Source of the DNA: Klebsiella aerogenes
GTDB lineage: Bacteria; Pseudomonadota; Gammaproteobacteria; Enterobacterales; Enterobacteriaceae
NCBI GenBank assembly: GCA_029027985.1
Contig: CP119076.1
Location: 682,001 to 746,000, forward strand
Direction of reading: 5' to 3'
DNA: 64,000 bases
Under the pieces are notes generated by a model that was given only the letters and a program-made list of their open reading frames with translations, was not told the origin of the DNA and did not search any database. Position 1 is the stretch's first letter. The number at the start of each line of letters is the position of its first letter. The translations under genes and the position numbers were made by a program. Positions 16,443-26,128 of this stretch are shown piece after piece.

Positions 16443-16476
16443 GACTCCGCGCGCTTTCCCGGCGCGGAGTCTTCCC
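16443..16476 (+). terminator. Intrinsic terminator after the aminotransferase
   Basis: Ten-bp stem GACTCCGCGC/GCGCGGAGTC (16443-16452 with 16462-16471), followed by TTCCCTT. Confidence 0.75.
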
Positions 16477-16492
16477 TTGCTACACGCCGAGT

Positions 16493-17206
16493 ATGCCAAT
16501 GAACCCTGATAACCTGCCGCTGGCGCTGATCCCCGGTTTTATGCTGGATGAAACCCTATGGGATGCCTTCGTCGCCGAATTTCCGCCGTCGCGTACCTTT
16601 GTCCGCGCCAGCCTGCGAGAAGGCGAGACCATTGCTGAAATGGCGCGTCATATCGTCAGCACGCTGCCGCCGCGCTTTGTGCTGGTGGGCTTCTCGCTGG
16701 GCGGTTACATTGCGCGTTCGATTGTCGAACAGTTCCCGCAATCGGTCGCCGGGTTGGTGCTGGTCGCCACCTCGCTGCGTGAAGATAGCGAGGAGCAGCA
16801 ACAGATTAAAACCGCGGCGATTAAAGCGGTCTCCGGGCCGACTTTCCGTGGGATTAGCACCGGCGCCATTGCCGCGACGTTGCACCCATCGCGGGCGCAG
16901 GACCACGCGCTGATTGCGCAAATCCGCGCGATGGGCGCGCAGCTGGGCGCTGATGTTTTTCGTCGTCAGGCGAGCCTGGTACGAGGAAAAATCACGCGAC
17001 ATCCTATTGAATGCCCGACGTTAGTTATCGCTGCCGCTGACGACCCGTCACGCCCGCTGGCCGAACTGCAGGAGTTGCACCAGAGTATTGCCGGTTCGAC
17101 ATTGGCGTTGATTGAGCAGTGCGGTCATATGGTGCCGTTAGAGCAGCCGGGTAGGCTGGCGGAGACGATTAGTGAGTGGCTGGCGAAGCAGAGAGAGTCG
17201 TGGTGA
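16493..17206 (+). CDS. Alpha/beta-fold hydrolase
   Basis: The 237-aa soluble hydrolase has the oxyanion strand LALIPGFM, the nucleophile elbow GFSLGG (Ser near residue 69), an Asp in AAADDPSRP and a His in EQCGHMVPLE. It resembles small esterase/BioH-like enzymes; the substrate is unknown. Two in-frame ATGs (16493, 16499) are possible and neither has a strong ribosome site. It lies after a terminator, so it probably has its own promoter. Confidence 0.78.
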   Translation: MPMNPDNLPLALIPGFMLDETLWDAFVAEFPPSRTFVRASLREGETIAEMARHIVSTLPPRFVLVGFSLGGYIARSIVEQFPQSVAGLVLVATSLREDSEEQQQIKTAAIKAVSGPTFRGISTGAIAATLHPSRAQDHALIAQIRAMGAQLGADVFRRQASLVRGKITRHPIECPTLVIAAADDPSRPLAELQELHQSIAGSTLALIEQCGHMVPLEQPGRLAETISEWLAKQRESW

Positions 17207-17267
17207 AGTTGCTCGCCGTTGCCCGGGGCGGGAAACGACGAGCAGAGAAGTCAGAATCGAGAAGAGA

Positions 17268-17357
17268 TCACTCCTGCTCGGCGATACGATCGTCAAGCCA
17301 GATAAGCATCAAGGAAGAGAGAAAAGCGACAGCAATGGTGCCAATAAACAACAACAT
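17268..17357 (-). CDS. Putative 29-aa single-pass membrane protein
   Basis: Reading the minus strand from ATG 17357 gives 29 residues and TGA. Residues 1-20 (MLLFIGTIAVAFLSSLMLIW) form one hydrophobic helix, followed by a charged tail LDDRIAEQE. A strong ribosome site TGAGGAAAT sits eight bases before the start. It follows a 65-aa frame by 24 bp on the same strand. I do not recognise it. Hydrophobic miniproteins with acidic tails commonly tune inner membrane transporters or kinases; that is analogy only. Confidence 0.6.
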   Translation of the reverse strand: MLLFIGTIAVAFLSSLMLIWLDDRIAEQE

Positions 17358-17381
17358 AATAATTTCCTCAGGGGCTTTTTA

Positions 17382-17579
17382 TTATTTTTCTAATTTAACC
17401 GGTGAGTGACTGTTCTTATCTGCAATGGTGATTTTGGTATCGTGCTGCGTCGTCGCAAGGGTGAAAAAATCATCGGCGTCGATATCGAAGTTCAGTACTA
17501 TTTCCCGATATTTTCTGGCGTTAATCAATTCTTTAGCTTCTTTCATACTACTGGCGATAATAGTAGGCATCAGATTCAT
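17382..17579 (-). CDS. Putative 65-aa soluble protein, partner of the miniprotein
   Basis: The frame reads MNLMPTIIASSMKEAKELIN at its start and ends HSPVKLEK. The pattern (helix KEAKELINARKYREI, strand VLNFDIDADDFF, LATTQHDTKITIAD) looks like a small alpha/beta protein rather than random reading. A start at Met4 (17570) is possible because GAG at 17580-17582 is then better spaced. It is AT-richer than its surroundings. No family recognised. A terminator-like hairpin lies immediately upstream, which could regulate it. Confidence 0.5.
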   Translation of the reverse strand: MNLMPTIIASSMKEAKELINARKYREIVLNFDIDADDFFTLATTQHDTKITIADKNSHSPVKLEK

Positions 17580-17587
17580 CTCAGTTT

Positions 17588-17616
17588 AAAAAACTGCTAG
17601 CAAAATAAAAGCTAGC
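17588..17616 (-). terminator. Terminator-like hairpin just upstream of the mini-operon
   Basis: On the minus strand GCTAGC-TTTTATTTT-GCTAGC is followed by AG and six T. It ends only 8 bases before the 65-aa frame. It could end transcripts from the DUF1330 gene or act as an attenuator in the leader of the small genes. The AT-rich 17620-17818 holds no gene I can support. Confidence 0.6.
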
Positions 17617-17818
17617 TCGTATCAGATCAACTACTTTTTACTGTCATCTACATCACAGAAAAAGACATGGCTACGCTGACTGGCGAAAAATGAAACATAA
17701 TTTCTGTTTTCCGCACAGCAGGTAGCGAATTATTTTATTGATCTCACTGAAGAATATGAAAACATCGCTTAAAAATAATATCCCTGCTTATTTTAAGACT
17801 ACTGGCCGTCATATTCAG

Positions 17819-18109
17819 TCAGGCTGGTAAACCTTCGACGATGGTTATCATCGCGTCGGCGACATCCGCACGCGCGGCGCGCGCCTGCTGATATTCTTCC
17901 GAGTGGTAGCAGGCCAGCGCGCTTGCCATATCGCTAAACTCAATCAGGACGTGTTTGGCGAAGCGTTGTCCTTCCAGCGTCTGCGCCTGGCCGCCGCGGG
18001 CGACGAAGCGCGCGTTGAAACGTTTGAACGCCGCAGGGGCGAGATCCATATAGTGTTGATATTGCTCGGGATCGTGAATATTGACGTGGGCAATCCAGTA
18101 AGCGGCCAT
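17819..18109 (-). CDS. DUF1330 family protein
   Basis: The 96-aa protein is a dimeric alpha-beta barrel of the DUF1330 family (AYWIAHVNIHDPEQYQHY near the start, HVLIEFSDMASALACYHSEEYQQA, then a helix). CAGGAGTAAAC precedes ATG 18109. It starts two bases after the stop of the GntR regulator on the same strand, so the two are co-transcribed. DUF1330 proteins often sit in catabolic clusters and resemble small monooxygenases or isomerases; no activity is assigned. Its link to the divergent operon is inferred from position. Confidence 0.82.
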   Translation of the reverse strand: MAAYWIAHVNIHDPEQYQHYMDLAPAAFKRFNARFVARGGQAQTLEGQRFAKHVLIEFSDMASALACYHSEEYQQARAARADVADAMITIVEGLPA

Positions 18110-18111
18110 GT

Positions 18112-18789
18112 TTACTCCTGTGAGGATAGAATCTGTTTGGCGAGCTGCGCGGCTTCGGTTAGATGCTCAAACACCGCCTGTCGGGCCTGCTGTGGGTCGT
18201 TGCTTTCAATCGCGCTATAGATGCGCGACATACGCTCAAAGCCCGCTACTTGCCGTTCCGGCGAAGCCAGAGTCAGCGCGCGCAGGCGGCTGATGCGGCT
18301 ATTCAGACGCTGCACGATTTCCCAGGCGATCGTGTGTTTCGCGACGCGGAATAGGGTTTCATAGAAAGCCTGCGAGGCTTCAACCCGCTTAATGTCATCC
18401 TGCTCGCGCGAAGCCTGAGCGATCAGCTGTAGCTGCTGCTGAAGCTGCCGTTTATCGTCGGCATTAGCGAGTTTGGCGCAATCACAGGCCGCCTCTTGTT
18501 CAAGCAACATACGAATGTTGTAGATCTGCTCTGCGCTTTCCCAGCTTAAAACAGCAACGATGGGGCCTTTTTTCGGCAGCGTTTCAATAAGCCCTTCGGC
18601 TTCAAGATAGCGGATCACCTCTCTGACCACGCTGCGGCTGACGCCGAGCTGCTCGGTTAGCTGACGTTCGACCAGTCGATCGCCCGCTTTAAAATAGCCG
18701 GCAATAATCGCCTGGCGGACTTTTGTTAACGCCAGCTCACGTAACGTAACCGGGACGGCATCAATTTTTAGTGAATGGTTATCAACCAT
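18112..18789 (-). CDS. GntR/FadR-subfamily transcriptional regulator
   Basis: The 225-aa regulator has a winged helix-turn-helix (about 14-78: LRELALTKVRQAIIAGYF, LVERQLTEQLGVSRSVVREV) and an FCD ligand domain (about 88-220, with the metal-binding Asp/His pattern in MLLEQEAACDC and VFEHLTEAAQ). ATG 18789 is chosen over TTG 18792 because AGAGGG is six bases upstream. It is divergent from the AA_synth operon; the perfect palindrome ATGGTATACCAT beside that operon's promoter is its likely operator. The ligand is probably a pathway substrate or intermediate. Confidence 0.88.
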   Translation of the reverse strand: MVDNHSLKIDAVPVTLRELALTKVRQAIIAGYFKAGDRLVERQLTEQLGVSRSVVREVIRYLEAEGLIETLPKKGPIVAVLSWESAEQIYNIRMLLEQEAACDCAKLANADDKRQLQQQLQLIAQASREQDDIKRVEASQAFYETLFRVAKHTIAWEIVQRLNSRISRLRALTLASPERQVAGFERMSRIYSAIESNDPQQARQAVFEHLTEAAQLAKQILSSQE

Positions 18790-19184
18790 CAAATCCCTCT
18801 GTGTTTATCTGATGAATCAAAGCGGCAACACGGCCCGCAGAGGAGAATCGCTGTACTATTAGCACCCTTTCGTCAGGCGACGCAACGTTAGTCCGCGGTG
18901 AGGTACTGGCGATTCACTTCTCCGGAAGCCAGGAAATTGCGCTGGCTCACAAATCTGCATTCTGCTGAAGAAAAAAACGCGCTGCGACCGTCGTTATCCT
19001 AACACTTTGATTTTAGTTCATTTCAAAGTGGTGAAATGTTCACCGCTTCCCACCCTTGCGTTTATCCGGTTTTTAAGCGGGAAAACGTCATGTAATTTCT
19101 TTAAATCTAATAAAAATCATAAAGTTAAATAATTAAAAATCGCTTTATCTCTCATCATGATTCGGCATAAAAACATACCGTATG

Positions 19185-19229
19185 ATGGTATACCATATTT
19201 TGACATGTTAATTTCGCCGATGCTATACC
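19185..19229 (+). promoter_or_regulatory. Operator and promoter of catabolic cluster A
   Basis: A perfect 12-bp palindrome ATGGTATACCAT (19185-19196) lies four bases before a -35 TTGACA (19200-19205). The -10 is TATACC (19224-19229) with an extended TG two bases ahead and an 18-bp spacer. The -10 region GCTATACCAC repeats half of the palindrome, so repressor bound at both could block polymerase. The start codon is 52 bases downstream. The remainder of the divergent gap 18790-19184 holds no gene I can support; it is AT-rich toward 19.1 kb. Confidence 0.7.
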
Positions 19230-19280
19230 ACTTGCGAAACATTTAATTAGCAAGTTGTTAACCTTTATTGAGGAGAGGCT

Positions 19281-19883
19281 ATGCATCCGGCGATTCGTAA
19301 AACGTTAGTCACAACGGAAACGTTGTATGTCGATGGTGGTAAAGCGGCTGCAAAACCGCTGGTGATGATTGCCGCCGCGGCGGTGATCCGCAACCCGTGG
19401 GCAGGGCTGGGCTATGTCGACGACCTCGCCCCGCAAATCCGTGAATTCGCGCCGATCCTTGGCGAGCTACTTACCGGCCTGATTCTGCAGGAAGCCGGCG
19501 GCGGTGAAAAAGTCGAAGCGTTTGGGAAAAGCGCGATCGTCGGTCTTGATGGCGAGCTGGAGCATGCCTCGGCGCTTATCCATACGCTGCATTTTGGCAA
19601 CCACTACCGTAGCGCGGTACAGAGCAAGAGCTACCTGGCATTTAACAACACTCGTGGTCCGGCTAATTCACCGGTGCTGATCCCGATGATGAACAAGAAC
19701 GACGAAGGCAGCCGCGAACACTATCTGACGATGCAGTTCAACATCAGCGATGCGCCGCGTTATGACGAAATCGTTATTGCGCTGGGTGCGGCGCTGGGCG
19801 GACGCCCGCATCACCGTATTGGTAACCGTTACTCCGACCTGAAAGAGTTAGGCCATGATGCGCAAAACCCAGCAGCTGTCTGA
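19281..19883 (+). CDS. AA_synth (DUF1185) family protein
   Basis: The 200-aa protein belongs to the family named amino acid synthesis (PF06684 type), recognised from AIRKTLVTTETLYVDGG, AAAVIRNPWAGLGYVDDL and the C-terminal HHRIGNRYSDLKELG. Such proteins have a chorismate-mutase-like or ring-hydrolase-like fold and no settled reaction. GAGGAGAGGCT precedes the ATG. It is the first gene of an operon with two overlaps downstream, so a catabolic step on a ring-opening intermediate is more likely than synthesis. The catalytic residues are unknown. Confidence 0.82.
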   Translation: MHPAIRKTLVTTETLYVDGGKAAAKPLVMIAAAAVIRNPWAGLGYVDDLAPQIREFAPILGELLTGLILQEAGGGEKVEAFGKSAIVGLDGELEHASALIHTLHFGNHYRSAVQSKSYLAFNNTRGPANSPVLIPMMNKNDEGSREHYLTMQFNISDAPRYDEIVIALGAALGGRPHHRIGNRYSDLKELGHDAQNPAAV

Positions 19884-20700
19884 TCGTCAGATGCGGGTCA
19901 GCTATCTGGAGGCTGGCGAAGGCGAGCCGCTGGTGCTGATCCACGGCGTCGGTATGAATGCGGCGTCCTGGTATCCGCAAATTGAGGCGCTGAGCCGCCA
20001 TTTCCGGGTAATTGCCGTCGATATGCCGGGACATGGCAATAGCGAGGCTTTCCATCATCCGGCGACCTTAACGGACTACGTGGCCTGGTTGAATGATTTT
20101 CTGCGTACCCAGCCCGAGCGTTGTTTTGCGGTCGCGGGTCACTCGATGGGGGCGCTTATCGCCTCAGGTTTGGCCATTGACCATCCGCAGCGGGTGAGCC
20201 ATGCGGTGGTGATGAGTGGCGTGTTTCGCCGCAGCGAGCAGGCGCGTCGCGCCGTGCTGCAGCGGGCCCGCGAACTGGCGGACGGCGAGGCGCAGTTGGA
20301 TTCCCCGTTGGCGCGCTGGTTTAGCAACGACGCCGGGGAAGCCATCCTGCGTGAACAGGTAGGCGGCTGGCTGGCGGAGGTGAATGTGCAAGGCTACGCC
20401 GCTGCATATCAGGCCTTTGCCAGCGGCGATCGGGTCTATGCCGATCGCTGGCGGGAGATCCGCTGCCCGGTACTGGTGTTGACCGGTGAACTGGATGCCA
20501 ACTCCAGCCCGCAAATGGCGCAGGAGATGGCGGCGGCGGCGCCGCTGGGTCAGGCGGTCATTATCGACGGCGCCCGGCATATGGTCAGTCTGACCGATGC
20601 CCTGCGCGTCAACCATGAATTGCTGAGCTTCTTGCAGTGCGGCTCGGCGCGACAGAGCAACAATGCCGATATGGCGGGACTCTCTCATGCAAACAGATAA
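19855..20700 (+). CDS. Alpha/beta hydrolase, TgnD-like candidate
   Basis: The 281-aa hydrolase overlaps the preceding gene by 29 bp. It has the oxyanion motif IHGVGMNAASW, the nucleophile elbow GHSMGA (Ser near residue 97), Asp in TGELDANSS and His in GARHMVSL. In the A. baylyi trigonelline pathway an alpha/beta hydrolase of this size (TgnD) cleaves the N-methylformamido-methylene succinate intermediate; gene company here makes an equivalent role likely. It could instead act on another enamide or lactone. Overlaps on both sides indicate translational coupling. Confidence 0.83.
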   Translation: MMRKTQQLSDRQMRVSYLEAGEGEPLVLIHGVGMNAASWYPQIEALSRHFRVIAVDMPGHGNSEAFHHPATLTDYVAWLNDFLRTQPERCFAVAGHSMGALIASGLAIDHPQRVSHAVVMSGVFRRSEQARRAVLQRARELADGEAQLDSPLARWFSNDAGEAILREQVGGWLAEVNVQGYAAAYQAFASGDRVYADRWREIRCPVLVLTGELDANSSPQMAQEMAAAAPLGQAVIIDGARHMVSLTDALRVNHELLSFLQCGSARQSNNADMAGLSHANR

Positions 20701-21613
20701 ACGTAGACAACTCCGCGACGCTTTTGGCGCGTTTATGACCGGCGTCACCGTCGTCACCAGCCGTGATAAAAACGGCGAGCCGATTGGCTTTACCGCCAAC
20801 TCTTTCTCTTCGGTATCGCTGGATCCAGCGTTGCTGTTGGTCAGCATCGATAAACGTTCGGCCAACTTCAGCAACTTCACCGAGTGCGCCTATTTCGCGG
20901 TCAATATTCTGGCGGAACAGCAGAAAGAAACCTCCAACATCTTCGCCCAGAAAGTTGAGGACCGCTTCAGTCTGATTGACTGGCGCGCCAGTGAAAACGG
21001 CACGCCGCTGATCGATGACAGTTCCGCATGGTTCGACTGCGCGCTGCATCAGGTCATCGACGCCGGCGATCACGCGATTTTGCTGGGCAGGGTTGAAGGT
21101 TTTGATTCCGTCGGCACCGCGGGGCTGGGCTACTATCGCGGGGCCTATTTCACGCCGTATCACAATGCCGAAGCGTTGATTAATCGCTTAAGCGTTGAAG
21201 TGAGCGCATTGATTGAGTTCAACGGTCAGGCGGTGATGGTGCCACACGGTGAGAGCTATCGCTTGCCGACTCGCAGCGTGGCGAAAGGCAGCGTCGACGA
21301 CACGCTGAAGGCGTTAATGGCGGAGTTGGGGATTAACGCCAGCCCGGGCTTTGTTTATTCGGTTTATGAAGATCGTCAGAACAATAAACAGCATATCGTG
21401 TTGCTGTGCGCGCTGCCGACCGAGTCGGAAAGCGAGCGGCCGGTTCTACAGCACGCGCAATGGTACGACCTGGAAAAACTGTCGGCGCTACCGATTGGCG
21501 ATTCGGCGCTGAAATCCTTGATGAACCGTTTTGTGCGTGAAAGTGCCGTCGGCAATTACAGTATTTACTACGGTGATGAACTGAGCGGGTCAATCAAGCA
21601 ATTCGCTAGCTGA
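20687..21613 (+). CDS. Flavin reductase with C-terminal Nudix-like domain (TgnA-like candidate)
   Basis: The 308-aa protein starts at ATG 20687 inside the end of the hydrolase gene (14-bp overlap). Residues 1-160 are an HpaC/RutF-type flavin reductase (FGAFMTGVTVVTS, GFTANSFSSVSLDPALLLVSI, AYFAVNIL, GYYRGAYF). Residues 165-308 look like a Nudix fold (ALIEFNGQAVMVPHG, YRLPTRSVAKGSVDDTLKAL) whose Nudix box has lost the REUXEE residues. It would supply reduced flavin to the next gene's monooxygenase. The tail may sense a nucleotide such as FAD, NAD or ADP-ribose. Confidence 0.82.
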   Translation: MQTDKRRQLRDAFGAFMTGVTVVTSRDKNGEPIGFTANSFSSVSLDPALLLVSIDKRSANFSNFTECAYFAVNILAEQQKETSNIFAQKVEDRFSLIDWRASENGTPLIDDSSAWFDCALHQVIDAGDHAILLGRVEGFDSVGTAGLGYYRGAYFTPYHNAEALINRLSVEVSALIEFNGQAVMVPHGESYRLPTRSVAKGSVDDTLKALMAELGINASPGFVYSVYEDRQNNKQHIVLLCALPTESESERPVLQHAQWYDLEKLSALPIGDSALKSLMNRFVRESAVGNYSIYYGDELSGSIKQFAS

Positions 21614-21632
21614 ATGTATACTGGAGCCCCAA

Positions 21633-22670
21633 ATGAAACTGTCTCTCTTTATTCATATGGAACGTATCTCGCCGGATGAGCCGCAGGATAAGCTCTACAA
21701 CGAGATGATGGCGCTGTGCGAAATGGCCGATGAAGCCGGGATGCACGCGATCTGGACCGGTGAGCATCATGGGATGAATTTTACCATTGCGCCGAACCCG
21801 TTTATTAATCTCGCCGATTTAGCCAACCGTACCAGCCGGGTGCGTCTGGGCACTGGCACCATCATTGCCCCGTTTAACCACCCGCTGCGGCTGGCTGGTG
21901 AGGCGGCCATGACCGATATCATCACCGGCGGTCGCCTGGAGTTGGGCATCGCGCGCGGAGCATACAACTACGAATACCAGCGTTTGATGCCTGGTCTGGA
22001 TGCCTGGGAAGCCGGGCAGCGGATGCGCGAACTGGTGCCTGCCGTGAAAAAATTGTGGGAAGGGGATTACGCGCACCAGGGAGAATACTGGCAATTCCCG
22101 TCATCGACCTCATCGCCGCAGCCCAAGCAGCAGCCGCATCCGCCGATCTGGATTGCCGCTCGGGATCCGAATAGTCATGAGTTTGCGGTCAGTAACGGCT
22201 GCAACGTGCAGGTGACGCCGCTGCATCAGGGCGAAGAAGAGATCGTCCGCCTGGCGGAATGTTTCCACGAAACCCGCCAGCGCCTGGCGCCGGAGAAACC
22301 GCTGAAAATTATGCTGCTGCAGCACGGCTTCGTCGCGGAAGATGAGCAGGACGCGCAGCAGGCCGCCGAAGAGCTTAACCGTTTTTATAACTATTTCGGC
22401 GCCTGGTTTAAGAATGAGCGTCCAGTAAGTCAGGGGCTAATTCAGCCGCTCAGCGACGAAGAGATTGCCGCCAATACCTATTATTCCGCTGCCGCCATGC
22501 GTAAAAATCTCGCCATCGGTACGCCGAATGAAATCATCACCCGGCTGAAAAAATATGAAGCGCTGGGCTATGACGAGTTTGCGTTATGGATTGATAGCGG
22601 CATGACGTTTGAGCGGAAAAAGGCGTCACTGACCCGTTTTATTCAGCAAGTTATGCCCGAATTTCGTTAA
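21633..22670 (+). CDS. LLM-class flavin-dependent monooxygenase (TgnB-like candidate)
   Basis: The 345-aa protein is a bacterial luciferase-like TIM barrel (MKLSLFIHMERI, WTGEHHGMNFTIAPNP, RLGTGTIIAPFNHPLRLAGEA, GRLELGIARGAYNYEY, KPLKIMLL). These enzymes use reduced FMN from a partner reductase, encoded 19 bp upstream, to oxygenate their substrate. The pair plus downstream aldehyde dehydrogenase and upstream hydrolase parallels trigonelline or pyridine ring opening. Substrate specificity cannot be read from the sequence. Confidence 0.87.
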   Translation: MKLSLFIHMERISPDEPQDKLYNEMMALCEMADEAGMHAIWTGEHHGMNFTIAPNPFINLADLANRTSRVRLGTGTIIAPFNHPLRLAGEAAMTDIITGGRLELGIARGAYNYEYQRLMPGLDAWEAGQRMRELVPAVKKLWEGDYAHQGEYWQFPSSTSSPQPKQQPHPPIWIAARDPNSHEFAVSNGCNVQVTPLHQGEEEIVRLAECFHETRQRLAPEKPLKIMLLQHGFVAEDEQDAQQAAEELNRFYNYFGAWFKNERPVSQGLIQPLSDEEIAANTYYSAAAMRKNLAIGTPNEIITRLKKYEALGYDEFALWIDSGMTFERKKASLTRFIQQVMPEFR

Positions 22671-22681
22671 CAGGTGCCGAG

Positions 22682-24148
22682 ATGGAATCGTTCGATCTTT
22701 ATATAGACGGTATGTTTGAGCGCGGCGCGGCGCGCTTTTCATCGCTTAACCCGGCGACCGCCCAGCCGTGGGCGGAAATTGCCGAAGCGCGGGGCGAGGA
22801 AGTGGATCGCGCCGTTGCCGCCGCCAGGCGGGCGTTTTACGATCCGGTCTGGCGCGGGCTAACCGCCAGCGCTCGCGGCAAGCTGCTGTTGAAGCTTGCC
22901 GAGCTGGTTGAGCAAAACGCCGCTGAACTGGCGCGGCTTGAAACGCTGGACACCGGGAAAATTATTCGCGAAACGCAATCGCAGATTGCCTATGTGGCTG
23001 AGTATTATCGCTATTACGCTGGTCTTGCCGATAAACTGGAAGGCCGTACGCTGGCGATTGATAAGGCGGATACCGAAACCTGGACCCGGCGTGAACCGGT
23101 TGGCGTCGTGGCCGCGATTATTCCGTGGAACAGCCAGCTCTTTTTATCGGCGGTGAAAATCGGTCCGGCACTGGCGGCGGGCTGTACTCTGGTTGTCAAA
23201 GCGGCAGAAAGCGCCCCCGCGCCGTTGCTGGCTTTTGCACGATTGATTGCTGACGCCGGTTTCCCGGCGGGCGTCTGTAACGTGATTACCGGTTTCGCCG
23301 AGGCGTGCGGGACGCGGTTAACCACCCATCCAGATGTTGACCATATCGCGTTTACCGGCGGCCCTGAGACCGCGCGGCATATTGTGCGCAACAGCGCGGA
23401 AAACCTCAGCAAAACCACCCTTGAGCTGGGCGGTAAGTCGCCCTTTATCGTCTTTGAGGATGCGGATTTGGACAGCGCCGCCAACGCGCAGGTTGCGGCG
23501 ATATTTGCCGCCTCCGGGCAGAGTTGCGTCGCCGGTTCGCGCCTGCTGGTAGCGGAAAGCGTCAAAGAGCAGTTGCTGGAGAAATTGGTCGAGCGCGTCA
23601 AACGGATTGTCATCGGCAGCCCGGACGACATGACGACGCAATTTGGCCCGCTGTGTACGCAACGCCAGAAGACGCTCATCGAGCAGGTCGTCAACCGCTC
23701 TCTGGAGCAGGGCGCCCGGCTGGTGATCGGCCATGACGCCATTGACTCCCCTGGCTATTACTATCCGCCGACGATCCTCGATTGTTCCGCCGCGCCGCAG
23801 GCGGAAAGCGTGGTGCGCGAGCTTTTCGGCCCGGTGCTTTCCGTCGTGACCTTCCGTGATGAAGCGGAAGCCATACGGCTGGCGAATGCTACCGATTACG
23901 GACTGGCGGCTGGCGTCTTTACGCGCAATCTGGCCCGCGCCCACCGTGCGACCCGCGATCTCCGCTGCGGGATCGTCTGGATAAACACGTATCGCATGGT
24001 ATCGCCGCTGGCACCCTTCGGCGGATACGGTCTTTCCGGCCATGGACGGGAAGGCGGAATGGAAGCGGCGCTGGAGTTCACTACCACCAAAACGGTGTGG
24101 CTGCGTACCAGCGATGAGCCGATCGACGATCCCTTTATCATGCGCTGA
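22682..24148 (+). CDS. Aldehyde dehydrogenase (TgnC-like candidate)
   Basis: The 488-aa NAD(P)-dependent aldehyde dehydrogenase has N150 in IIPWNSQ, K173 (VVKAAES), E248 in LELGGKSP and the nucleophile C282 in SGQSCVAGS. The start lies 11 bp after the monooxygenase gene. In the trigonelline pathway the ring-opened lactol is oxidised by an ALDH (TgnC) to a succinate derivative; this position fits that step. It is distinct from the PuuC-like ALDH at 27.7 kb. The cofactor-site sequence VVKAAES departs from the common KPSE motif. Confidence 0.9.
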   Translation: MESFDLYIDGMFERGAARFSSLNPATAQPWAEIAEARGEEVDRAVAAARRAFYDPVWRGLTASARGKLLLKLAELVEQNAAELARLETLDTGKIIRETQSQIAYVAEYYRYYAGLADKLEGRTLAIDKADTETWTRREPVGVVAAIIPWNSQLFLSAVKIGPALAAGCTLVVKAAESAPAPLLAFARLIADAGFPAGVCNVITGFAEACGTRLTTHPDVDHIAFTGGPETARHIVRNSAENLSKTTLELGGKSPFIVFEDADLDSAANAQVAAIFAASGQSCVAGSRLLVAESVKEQLLEKLVERVKRIVIGSPDDMTTQFGPLCTQRQKTLIEQVVNRSLEQGARLVIGHDAIDSPGYYYPPTILDCSAAPQAESVVRELFGPVLSVVTFRDEAEAIRLANATDYGLAAGVFTRNLARAHRATRDLRCGIVWINTYRMVSPLAPFGGYGLSGHGREGGMEAALEFTTTKTVWLRTSDEPIDDPFIMR

Positions 24149-24195
24149 AGCGACGTGTTTCTCTCCTCGCGCTATGGTCGGCGCGACGGTCGGTT

Positions 24196-24222
24196 GCGGT
24201 AACGCCAGCAGCGCGTTACCGC
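24196..24222. terminator. Hairpin between the ALDH and permease genes
   Basis: Ten-bp stem GCGGTAACGC/GCGTTACCGC with 7-nt loop, 47 bases after the ALDH stop and without a T-run. It may stabilise the upstream mRNA end or separate permease expression from the enzyme genes. Confidence 0.45.
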
Positions 24223-24351
24223 CACTGTCTTAACGGAATAACCCCAGCATGTATTCCCGGGAACCCTGCGTTCCCAGGGCTGGCTGTGCTCTTTTTTAGA
24301 CATTCGAACCCTACACATGAAAGAAAAAAATCCCCATTAACGGAGGATAAA

Positions 24352-25764
24352 ATGTCCCGAAACCACGTAATTGAAAATAAGACGGTGGACTACGTTCCGG
24401 CCAACGAACGCCACGGCCAGGCGCGCAGCCTCTTCACCTTATGGTTTTGTACCAATATCGCGCCGCTGGCGGTGGTGACCGGCGCGATATCCACGCAAAC
24501 GTTTCATCTTAATATTCTGTCGGCGATAAGCGCGATTATTGCCGGGCATATGTTTGGCGGGCTTTTTCTGGCGCTCACTTCCGCACAGGGGCCGCGAGTC
24601 GGCATCCCGCAAATGGTACAGAGCCGGGCGCAGTTCGGCCGCTACGGTTCGCTGCTGGTGGTCGCGTTCACCACCATGATTTATCTTGGCTTTTTTATCT
24701 CAAACGTGACGCTCTCCGGAAAAGTCATCAACAATGTCATACCGGCGATACCGGTGACCAGCGCGACGGTGATTGGCGCGATTGCCGCCACCTTGATTGG
24801 TGTGATTGGCTATCGCTTTATTCACCGCATTAATAAAATCGGCGCCTGGGTGATGGGCACGGCGCTGTTAGTGGGGTTGGTGATGATGCTCACGCAGCCT
24901 TTGCCGGCTGACTTCTGGCATCGAGGCTCATTCAGTCTCAACGGTTGGTTCGCAACGTTCTGTATCTGCGCCGTTTGGCAGATGAGTTTTTCACCTTATA
25001 CTTCTGATTATTCTCGCTATTTACCAGAAAATATCGGTGTGTTTAAACCGTTTATCTGCACCTGGGCGGGGGCCTGCTGCGGCACGATTCTGGCCTTTCT
25101 GGTGGGGGTTGCGGCGATTAACGTCGTCGGCGGCGAAGGGGATGCGATGGCGGCGGTGCGCCAGGCGACCGGAGTATTAGGGCCGATACTGATGGTGCTG
25201 TTTCTGCTCAACATTATTTGCCATAACTCGATGAATCTCTATGGGTCGGTTCTTTCGCTGATCACCGCTGTGCAGACTTTTCGCCCGCAGTGGCGGCCGG
25301 ATGCGCGGGTGCGGATGTTATTTTCTGCCGTGGTGCTAGTGGGGGGCGTGTTCGTCTCGGTAGCGGCGGCGGCCAATTTTGTCGCCTTCTTCCTGAATCT
25401 GATCTGGGCGTTAATTGGCGTCCTCATCCCGTGGTGCGTCATTAACCTGCTCGATTTTTACGTTATCAATAAGCAGCATTACGACATCGCCGCCATTTTT
25501 AGCGCCGACGGCGGGCGTTACGGGCTGGTAAATCGCCGTGCGCTGCTGGTTTACTTTGGCGGCGTACTGGTGCAGGTGCCGTTTGTTGAAAACGCCTTCT
25601 ATACCGGCCCGTGGGCGCACCTGATCCCCGGCGCCGATATTTCATGGATGATTAGCCTGGTGGTCACTAGCCTTGCGTATTTGCGTTTTCACCAACAGGG
25701 CGCCGCGGTGCAATATGGACAGGAAAAAGCCCGGATCACCGGCCTGATGGATAACGGCTCTTGA
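24352..25764 (+). CDS. NCS1-family (cytosine permease-like) transporter
   Basis: The 470-aa inner membrane protein has about 12 transmembrane helices. ATG 24352 follows CGGAGG; the extension to 24286 lacks family similarity. NCS1 landmarks are RSLFTLWFCTNIAPL, SAQGPRVGIPQMVQSRAQFG, FSPYTSDYSRYLP and PWCVINLLDFYVI. Family members import nucleobases, hydantoins, thiamine or related N-heterocycles with H+ or Na+. It closes cluster A and should bring in the substrate. Two paralogues lie at 34.7 and 39.6 kb. Confidence 0.9.
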   Translation: MSRNHVIENKTVDYVPANERHGQARSLFTLWFCTNIAPLAVVTGAISTQTFHLNILSAISAIIAGHMFGGLFLALTSAQGPRVGIPQMVQSRAQFGRYGSLLVVAFTTMIYLGFFISNVTLSGKVINNVIPAIPVTSATVIGAIAATLIGVIGYRFIHRINKIGAWVMGTALLVGLVMMLTQPLPADFWHRGSFSLNGWFATFCICAVWQMSFSPYTSDYSRYLPENIGVFKPFICTWAGACCGTILAFLVGVAAINVVGGEGDAMAAVRQATGVLGPILMVLFLLNIICHNSMNLYGSVLSLITAVQTFRPQWRPDARVRMLFSAVVLVGGVFVSVAAAANFVAFFLNLIWALIGVLIPWCVINLLDFYVINKQHYDIAAIFSADGGRYGLVNRRALLVYFGGVLVQVPFVENAFYTGPWAHLIPGADISWMISLVVTSLAYLRFHQQGAAVQYGQEKARITGLMDNGS

Positions 25765-25792
25765 CTAAAGGACGGGGCGAAAAGGCCCGCGC

Positions 25793-26128
25793 TTAGCGCT
25801 GCTGTTTTTCACTCATGAGCTGGCGGCAGCGCTGCTGGTCTTCGCCGATTGCCGCTTGCTCCTCTTCGCTAAGCTGCTGCCAGGTGCTGAGCATCTTGTC
25901 GCCCAGAGCGGAAATATAGTGGTTTTTGCGCAAGGCGTAATCGGCGTTGCCGCCCTCGACAATGTTTTCCATATCATGCAGAAACGCCTGCGGGTCGCGG
26001 TGATCAATGACGCAGAATACCGAGCGGTAATAGCTTTCTTCTTCTGCGGAGTAGTGCGGCGTCAGCCACCAGGCGATAGCGGCGGCCAGCGCCAGCAGCG
26101 GGAGAATAAAACGTAACGTCTTCAACAT
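25793..26128 (-). CDS. Membrane-anchored hypothetical protein, 111 aa
   Basis: The N-terminal segment LRFILPLLALAAAIAWWL (residues 5-22) is a transmembrane anchor or uncleaved signal. The rest is hydrophilic and probably periplasmic, with two cysteines (C39 in FCVID and C101 in QQRCRQLM) that could pair, and a predicted helical C-terminus rich in Glu and Gln. I recognise no family. It lies between the cluster A permease and the cluster B aminotransferase, convergent with the former and following the latter on the same strand after a terminator. Confidence 0.65.
   Translation of the reverse strand: MLKTLRFILPLLALAAAIAWWLTPHYSAEEESYYRSVFCVIDHRDPQAFLHDMENIVEGGNADYALRKNHYISALGDKMLSTWQQLSEEEQAAIGEDQQRCRQLMSEKQQR

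Follow-up and report, generated by a model that had tools for sequence, protein, structure and literature searches.

Background

Which compound is broken down by a divergent block of eight genes in the genome of Klebsiella aerogenes, and how widely do its relatives share that block? The block lies at positions 17819-25764 of a 64,000-nucleotide stretch of contig CP119076.1 (assembly GCA_029027985.1, positions 682,001 to 746,000 of the forward strand), referred to here as the window. Genes for a DUF1330 protein and a GntR regulator are read from the minus strand, and genes for an AA_synth protein, an alpha/beta hydrolase, a flavin reductase, an LLM flavin monooxygenase, an aldehyde dehydrogenase and an NCS1 permease from the plus strand. 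A preliminary description, made from the sequence alone, had proposed a trigonelline-type ring-opening pathway. From the comparisons reported below, we are highly confident that the block is a tgn cluster, whose pathway for trigonelline (N-methylnicotinate), a plant betaine, is probably functional. The tgn system is already known, and its pathway was reportedly worked out by Perchat et al. (2018) in Acinetobacter baylyi ADP1; our comparison strain was the type strain of that species, DSM 14961. What is new is an enterobacterial member of the system, with an operator-like motif and an empty site in related genomes. The finding extends trigonelline catabolism from the soil, marine and nodule bacteria where it was known to a mostly tgn-less Klebsiella lineage. 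As a compact block of 8 kb that includes an operator-like site, the cluster allows the use of plant betaines by enterobacteria to be tested cleanly by its presence or absence.

Results

Searched against plasmids, the LLM protein returned 390 records, of which 60 were listed; among these was a locus of Acinetobacter sp. PK01 with genes annotated as tgnA, tgnB and tgnC. Its gene order (DUF1330, GntR, AA_synth, hydrolase, tgnA, tgnB, tgnC and cytosine permease) and orientations are those of the window. All eight genes are likewise collinear and equally oriented in A. baylyi DSM 14961 (locus L018), with protein identities of 61, 55, 71, 48, 49, 66, 71 and 58% in gene order from DUF1330 to NCS1. 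The A. baylyi genome encodes a single TgnB-like protein, the one that is 66% identical to the window LLM protein; at E 1e-10, the one further match has 30% identity. A figure legend gives the TgnB accession as Q6F9F6 (PMC11354265). The best characterized homologues of the LLM protein are thus TgnB proteins (66-67% identity to A. baylyi and PK01) and not members of unrelated LLM families, which, together with the collinearity of eight genes in two Acinetobacter loci and the place of the protein inside the TgnB clade, bears out the trigonelline-type assignment. The preliminary description had wondered about a different substrate on account of the AA_synth, DUF1330 and NCS1 genes. That doubt falls away, because the tgn locus of Acinetobacter contains all three as well.

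In a maximum-likelihood tree, 89 of 92 LLM protein rows form a TgnB group, whose members include Acinetobacter, Burkholderia, Rhodobacterales (Ruegeria) and Sinorhizobium, and three rows are more distant. The window protein falls within this group in a six-row enterobacterial clade (support 100/100). Several deep forks in the group are weakly supported, and the exact sister group of the enterobacterial clade is unsure. When the 83 non-enterobacterial rows of the group were compared with five paralogues, 17 alignment columns separated the two sets, and the window protein carries the tgn-group residue in 16 of them. Ruegeria pomeroyi has been found to grow better on trigonelline than on homarine (PMC8269262); its own protein is not in the tree, which includes other Ruegeria. 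Orthologous clusters also lie close to nodulation genes on pSymA of Sinorhizobium meliloti and S. medicae, and a title cited in PMC12489286 places trigonelline catabolism genes of R. meliloti on pSym.

The individual gene products fit these assignments, and each of the eight domain calls made beforehand is returned by Pfam above its cut-off. In the minus-strand arm, the DUF1330 protein (17819..18109) matches PF07045 with 116 bits and the regulator (18112..18792) matches the FCD and GntR families PF07729 and PF00392 with 80 and 55 bits. The plus-strand arm begins with the AA_synth/DUF1185 protein (19281..19883; PF06684, 212 bits), an orthologue of TgnF, followed by the alpha/beta hydrolase (19855..20700; PF12697/PF00561, Abhydrolase 99 bits), a probable TgnD, named by the position of its gene. 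Its residues Ser97, Asp214 and His242 are invariant in all 11 aligned sequences, two of which are paralogues. The flavin reductase TgnA (20687..21613; PF01613, Flavin_Reduct 134 bits) aligns with the A. baylyi protein across residues 4-305 and has the TgnA-type two-domain form, its gene adjoining the LLM gene. Residues 7-307 match structure 3rh7 (E 7.2e-80), nearly the whole length and including the C-terminal part. This structure is reportedly that of SMa0793, and the pSymA cluster is its probable home. Next come TgnB (21633..22670; PF00296, Bac_luciferase 186 bits) and the aldehyde dehydrogenase TgnC (22682..24148; PF00171, Aldedh 540 bits), whose PK01 orthologue is annotated as (Z)-2-((N-methylformamido)methylene)-5-hydroxybutyrolactone dehydrogenase. 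The TgnC-type dehydrogenase, TgnD-type hydrolase and TgnF thus keep their order at 71, 48 and 71% identity to A. baylyi. The arm ends with the NCS1-family permease (24352..25764; PF02133, Transp_cyt_pur 133 bits), a probable trigonelline importer. NCBIfam release 20.0 gave no above-cut-off match for the eight cluster proteins among the matches listed, so the names TgnA, TgnB and TgnC rest on the PK01 annotation and on orthology.

The four open reading frames for which the preliminary description gave coordinates agree with the sequence, as do its outer limits of the cluster, and the tight junctions between the enzyme genes hold too: AA_synth and hydrolase overlap by 29 nt and hydrolase and reductase by 14 nt, and gaps of 19 and 11 nt separate reductase from LLM gene and LLM gene from dehydrogenase gene. 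The reductase start at 20687, which lies inside a longer frame opening at 20663, matches the annotated orthologue in a second K. aerogenes record (locus L010); by the annotated permease orthologue of that locus, the permease likely starts at 24352 and not at the first GTG at 24286.

This grouping of genes is not a chance one, as it recurs in Gamma-, Beta- and Alphaproteobacteria. Across 89 loci that were found by way of the LLM gene (which is therefore present in all 89 by construction), and with a gene counted wherever in the locus it lay, aldehyde dehydrogenase occurred in 88, flavin reductase in 85, AA_synth in 84, hydrolase in 82, GntR in 81, DUF1330 in 73 and NCS1 in 41, with ABC substrate-binding matches in 30; six loci are short (L008, L070, L078, L087, L095 and L096) and some contain a second cassette. 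The uptake gene varies by lineage, being NCS1 in Acinetobacter, many Burkholderiaceae and the window and an ABC importer in many Alphaproteobacteria. The pSymA clusters of S. meliloti and S. medicae show how far the surroundings can change: GntR, AA_synth, hydrolase, reductase, LLM and dehydrogenase genes follow in the order of the window, whereas a NIPSNAP gene comes after the dehydrogenase gene, no DUF1330 gene was seen, an ABC importer replaces NCS1 and GntR lies on the same strand.

Between the divergent arms, 95 bp 5' of the AA_synth gene, lies the palindrome TGGTATACCA (19186..19195). The 85 upstream regions considered (84 loci and the window) contain the exact 10-mer in 68 cases and the looser form T[GT]GTATAC[CA]A in 71; in 50 mononucleotide shuffles, the looser form turned up in a mean of 0.16 of the 85 regions. 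Common ancestry of related loci makes these counts overstate independence, but copies of the motif are found in Gamma-, Beta- and Alphaproteobacteria alike. The Xanthomonas locus L030 has the GTATAC core only and, unlike the window, the upstream region of S. medicae (L013) has no TGGTATACCA-type site. TGGTATACCAT has a single palindromic site in the 5.0 Mb genome to which the window belongs. A. baylyi shares the inter-arm palindrome along with the genes, their order and their orientation: its operator-like site is TTGTATACCA, and a second copy of the motif lies 103 bp 5' of its succinic semialdehyde dehydrogenase (SSADH) gene. On this pattern of recurrence, the palindrome is probably the operator of the GntR/FCD protein, which probably represses both arms from it.

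The cluster is rare among the relatives of K. aerogenes. The LLM gene was found in two of the 20 genomes of the genus, one of them its own, and is missing from the other 18. Across the order, three of 394 genomes had a match and two (again including its own) a close copy; the third, G288 (locus L096), was left out of the count, being 49% identical and outside the tgn group in the tree, and served among the paralogues instead. At megablast sensitivity, the locus was not found in any E. coli genome of the collection. The second genome of the genus, G001, is 88-90% identical in DNA across the region and 98% identical in LLM protein; the window LLM protein is 98.3% identical to a protein on a K. 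aerogenes record. The aminotransferase gene that lies downstream of the cluster is present in seven of the 20 genus genomes, five of which lack tgn.

Flank alignments of six genomes delimit a block of about 8.1 kb (17641..25790) that is present in the window and G001 and missing at the site in four of the five other genomes compared. In these four tgn-less Klebsiella, the flanks lie 120-264 bp apart, compared with 8.1-8.6 kb here; one of the four carries a further 3.9 kb slightly downstream. The fifth, G006, has about 6.1 kb of other sequence between the flanks. Gain in the lineage of the window is the simpler reading, although the empty site alone would also be compatible with loss. Similar clusters, with LLM proteins of 81-91% identity, occur on plasmids of Pantoea and Chimaeribacter among the matches listed, and they are plausible relatives of a source. 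At 56.5% G+C, compared with 56.2% for the window, the block does not stand out as foreign in base composition. No tRNA gene was found in the window, and a comparison of 17560-17820 with 25700-26000 showed no exact repeat of 9-30 nt, whether direct or inverted; as flanking repeats were not found, we name no integration mechanism.

The K. pneumoniae strains assayed in PMC2656620 (95 by the row of numbers in the table) were always negative for trigonelline, which fits how seldom the cluster occurs. Negative results have also been reported for E. pasteurii, Siccibacter and Franconibacter. Other reports are off the question of catabolism: trigonelline is a mild osmoprotectant of Klebsiella sp. BRL6-2 and has been reported on solar panels. 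In the literature searched, no report was found of growth of K. aerogenes on trigonelline or of a test of the Klebsiella cluster.

Discussion

Gene content, order, orthology, clade, residues, motif and empty site were computed here, and the reaction steps that follow are drawn from annotation, print or general background. The NCS1 permease would import trigonelline, and TgnA would supply reduced flavin. With reduced flavin and O2, TgnB would cut the pyridinium ring to give the N-methylformamido-methylene semialdehyde/hydroxylactone, which TgnC would oxidize to N-methylformamido-methylene succinate. The hydrolase TgnD would take off the formyl group, and the resulting N-methyl enamine would break down to methylamine, CO2 and succinic semialdehyde, presumably aided by the AA_synth protein TgnF. 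An SSADH encoded elsewhere in the genome would complete the route to succinate.

Several observations weigh against a complete and unaltered trigonelline pathway. The SSADH (TgnE) gene was not found in the cluster, and neither were the porin-like gene (so judged by eye, and 'hypothetical' in PK01) and the carboxymuconolactone-decarboxylase-like (CMD) gene that lie 3' of the A. baylyi cluster; the sole CMD homologue found in the genome is 36% identical. The sarcosine-oxidase-type module 5' of the Acinetobacter cluster was found neither in nor beside that of the window, and a search with its large subunit gave a 32% match to the C-terminal part only. In TgnB, an identity of 66% leaves room for an altered substrate range, and the protein deviates at diagnostic column 233 and at 15 of the 177 columns in which the 83 other rows of the tgn group reach 95% conservation or more. 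The genome does encode unlinked SSADHs with 62, 60 and 55% identity to that of A. baylyi, and linkage of SSADH is not universal, with matches in 37 of 89 loci, short loci and off-cluster matches included. Use of the carbon as succinate is therefore likely on present evidence. It is doubtful whether the nitrogen of methylamine is used, because no sarcosine-oxidase-type module was found.

Could the same enzymes and chemistry have shifted, in the enterobacterial clade, to another N-alkylpyridinium compound or pyridine carboxylate such as homarine or a nicotinate derivative? The clade has a fairly long stem (0.33), and paralogous cassettes with the same enzyme set exist in Caballeronia (L043/L044, minus strand; LLM protein 55% identical to that of the window) and on Agrobacterium pAt (L097; 42%). 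However, the window TgnB retains 16 of the 17 residues that set the tgn group apart from five paralogues and is nested among proteins of Acinetobacter, Ruegeria and Sinorhizobium, while the permease type and the operator-like motif match Acinetobacter. Homarine was deemed unlikely for TgnA/TgnB on steric grounds in PMC8269262. We give such a shift a very small chance.

The chance that a horizontally acquired cluster has decayed or lost its function is also small. It would then be silent or detoxifying and would give no support to growth, and the absence of adjacent TgnE and CMD genes and the low counts in the genus and the order (two of 20 and two of 394 genomes, own genome included) would suit this explanation. 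Against it, all eight reading frames are open with their domains intact, the Ser, Asp and His residues of the hydrolase are retained and the operator-like site is intact. The region in G001 has about 89% DNA identity but 98% LLM protein identity, as expected under purifying selection. A probably working trigonelline pathway remains our preferred explanation.

TgnF deserves separate comment. A DUF1185/AA_synth member is named TgnF in A. baylyi ADP1 in a passage of PMC7913881 that cites Perchat 2018. The window protein is no passenger, because its identity to the A. baylyi protein (71%) exceeds that of the hydrolase (48%) and that of the reductase (49%). Glu92, His95 and Arg179 are invariant residues of TgnF. 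We tentatively suggest that the family is misnamed and that TgnF may be a BCM/Rid-fold enamine hydrolase or tautomerase, which would convert the TgnD-derived N-methyl enamine to methylamine and 2-formylsuccinate, the latter then losing CO2 to give succinic semialdehyde, and which may serve other pyridine-ring routes via an aminomethylene dicarboxylate. If true, this would account for the reported stimulation by TgnF of TgnE-dependent oxidation, and Sulfitobacter loci with two AA_synth genes each would be examples of the other routes. In our comparison, the PF06684 'amino acid synthesis' family is a steady partner of N-ring-opening enzymes, which opens this orphan family to a definite biochemical test. 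The AA_synth contexts outside tgn were hand-picked from a 60-row spread of 375 records and were not sampled. In two of them, on Sulfitobacter plasmids (L100:5423-6585 and L104:5420-6585), two tandem AA_synth genes have UPF0280 and subunits of a molybdenum hydroxylase as neighbours, and L100 also has a gene annotated as 6-hydroxynicotinate reductase.

The Rut pyrimidine pathway (RutA-G) comprises an LLM ring-opener, a flavin reductase, an alpha/beta hydrolase and the YjgF-type helper RutC, and the window cluster resembles it in working through the first three. Membership in the Rut family can be dismissed: scores were 68.9 bits for RutD (cut-off 238.5) and 87.9 for RutF (cut-off 254.75), the window AA_synth protein belongs to PF06684, and RutA was not matched by the window LLM protein among the best 25 of 31 families. 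The Arthrobacter pyridine (Pyr) cluster also pairs an LLM monooxygenase with a flavin reductase.

Related cassettes were seen in other loci. In Caballeronia (L043:3698-8000 and L044:4555-8100, minus strand), a second, divergent cassette of AA_synth, hydrolase, reductase, LLM and aldehyde dehydrogenase genes, with an LLM protein about 55% identical to that of the window, stands back to back with tgn; it is possibly a ring-opening pathway for another substrate. Agrobacterium fabrum pAt (L097:796-7586) and Rhizobium binae (L098:1-6588) have paralogous genes for a flavin reductase, an aldehyde dehydrogenase, an LLM protein (42% identical to that of the window) and a hydrolase, together with AA_synth, and the Agrobacterium cassette also has CMD and NIPSNAP genes and lies near a glycine-betaine-type ABC importer. 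In Mesorhizobium ciceri (L102:6581-8380), a single 1800-nt gene annotated as an alpha/beta hydrolase stands where the hydrolase and flavin reductase genes would be expected, the order being tgn-like otherwise; this suggests a fusion of the two genes.

Two database records and two stretches next to the block may also be noted. The 791 kb 'plasmid 4' of K. aerogenes NCTC10006 (L010, LR134124.1) may be a piece of chromosome, because the tgn block that it carries sits in the large contig C1 here. An Acinetobacter venetianus plasmid (L132, CP060162.1) has the gene order and replicon type of a Pantoea plasmid, so that either a transfer or a wrong label on the record may be involved. Just 5' of the tgn block, about 0.8 kb (window 16475-17263), including an alpha/beta hydrolase reading frame (16493-17206), is unmatched in the aligned region of all six relatives compared, G001 included. 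Finally, the flank that is conserved in tgn-less relatives may hold short minus-strand reading frames (window positions 17270-17600), among them one that, as judged by eye, has a hydrophobic stretch and a length of about 29 codons.

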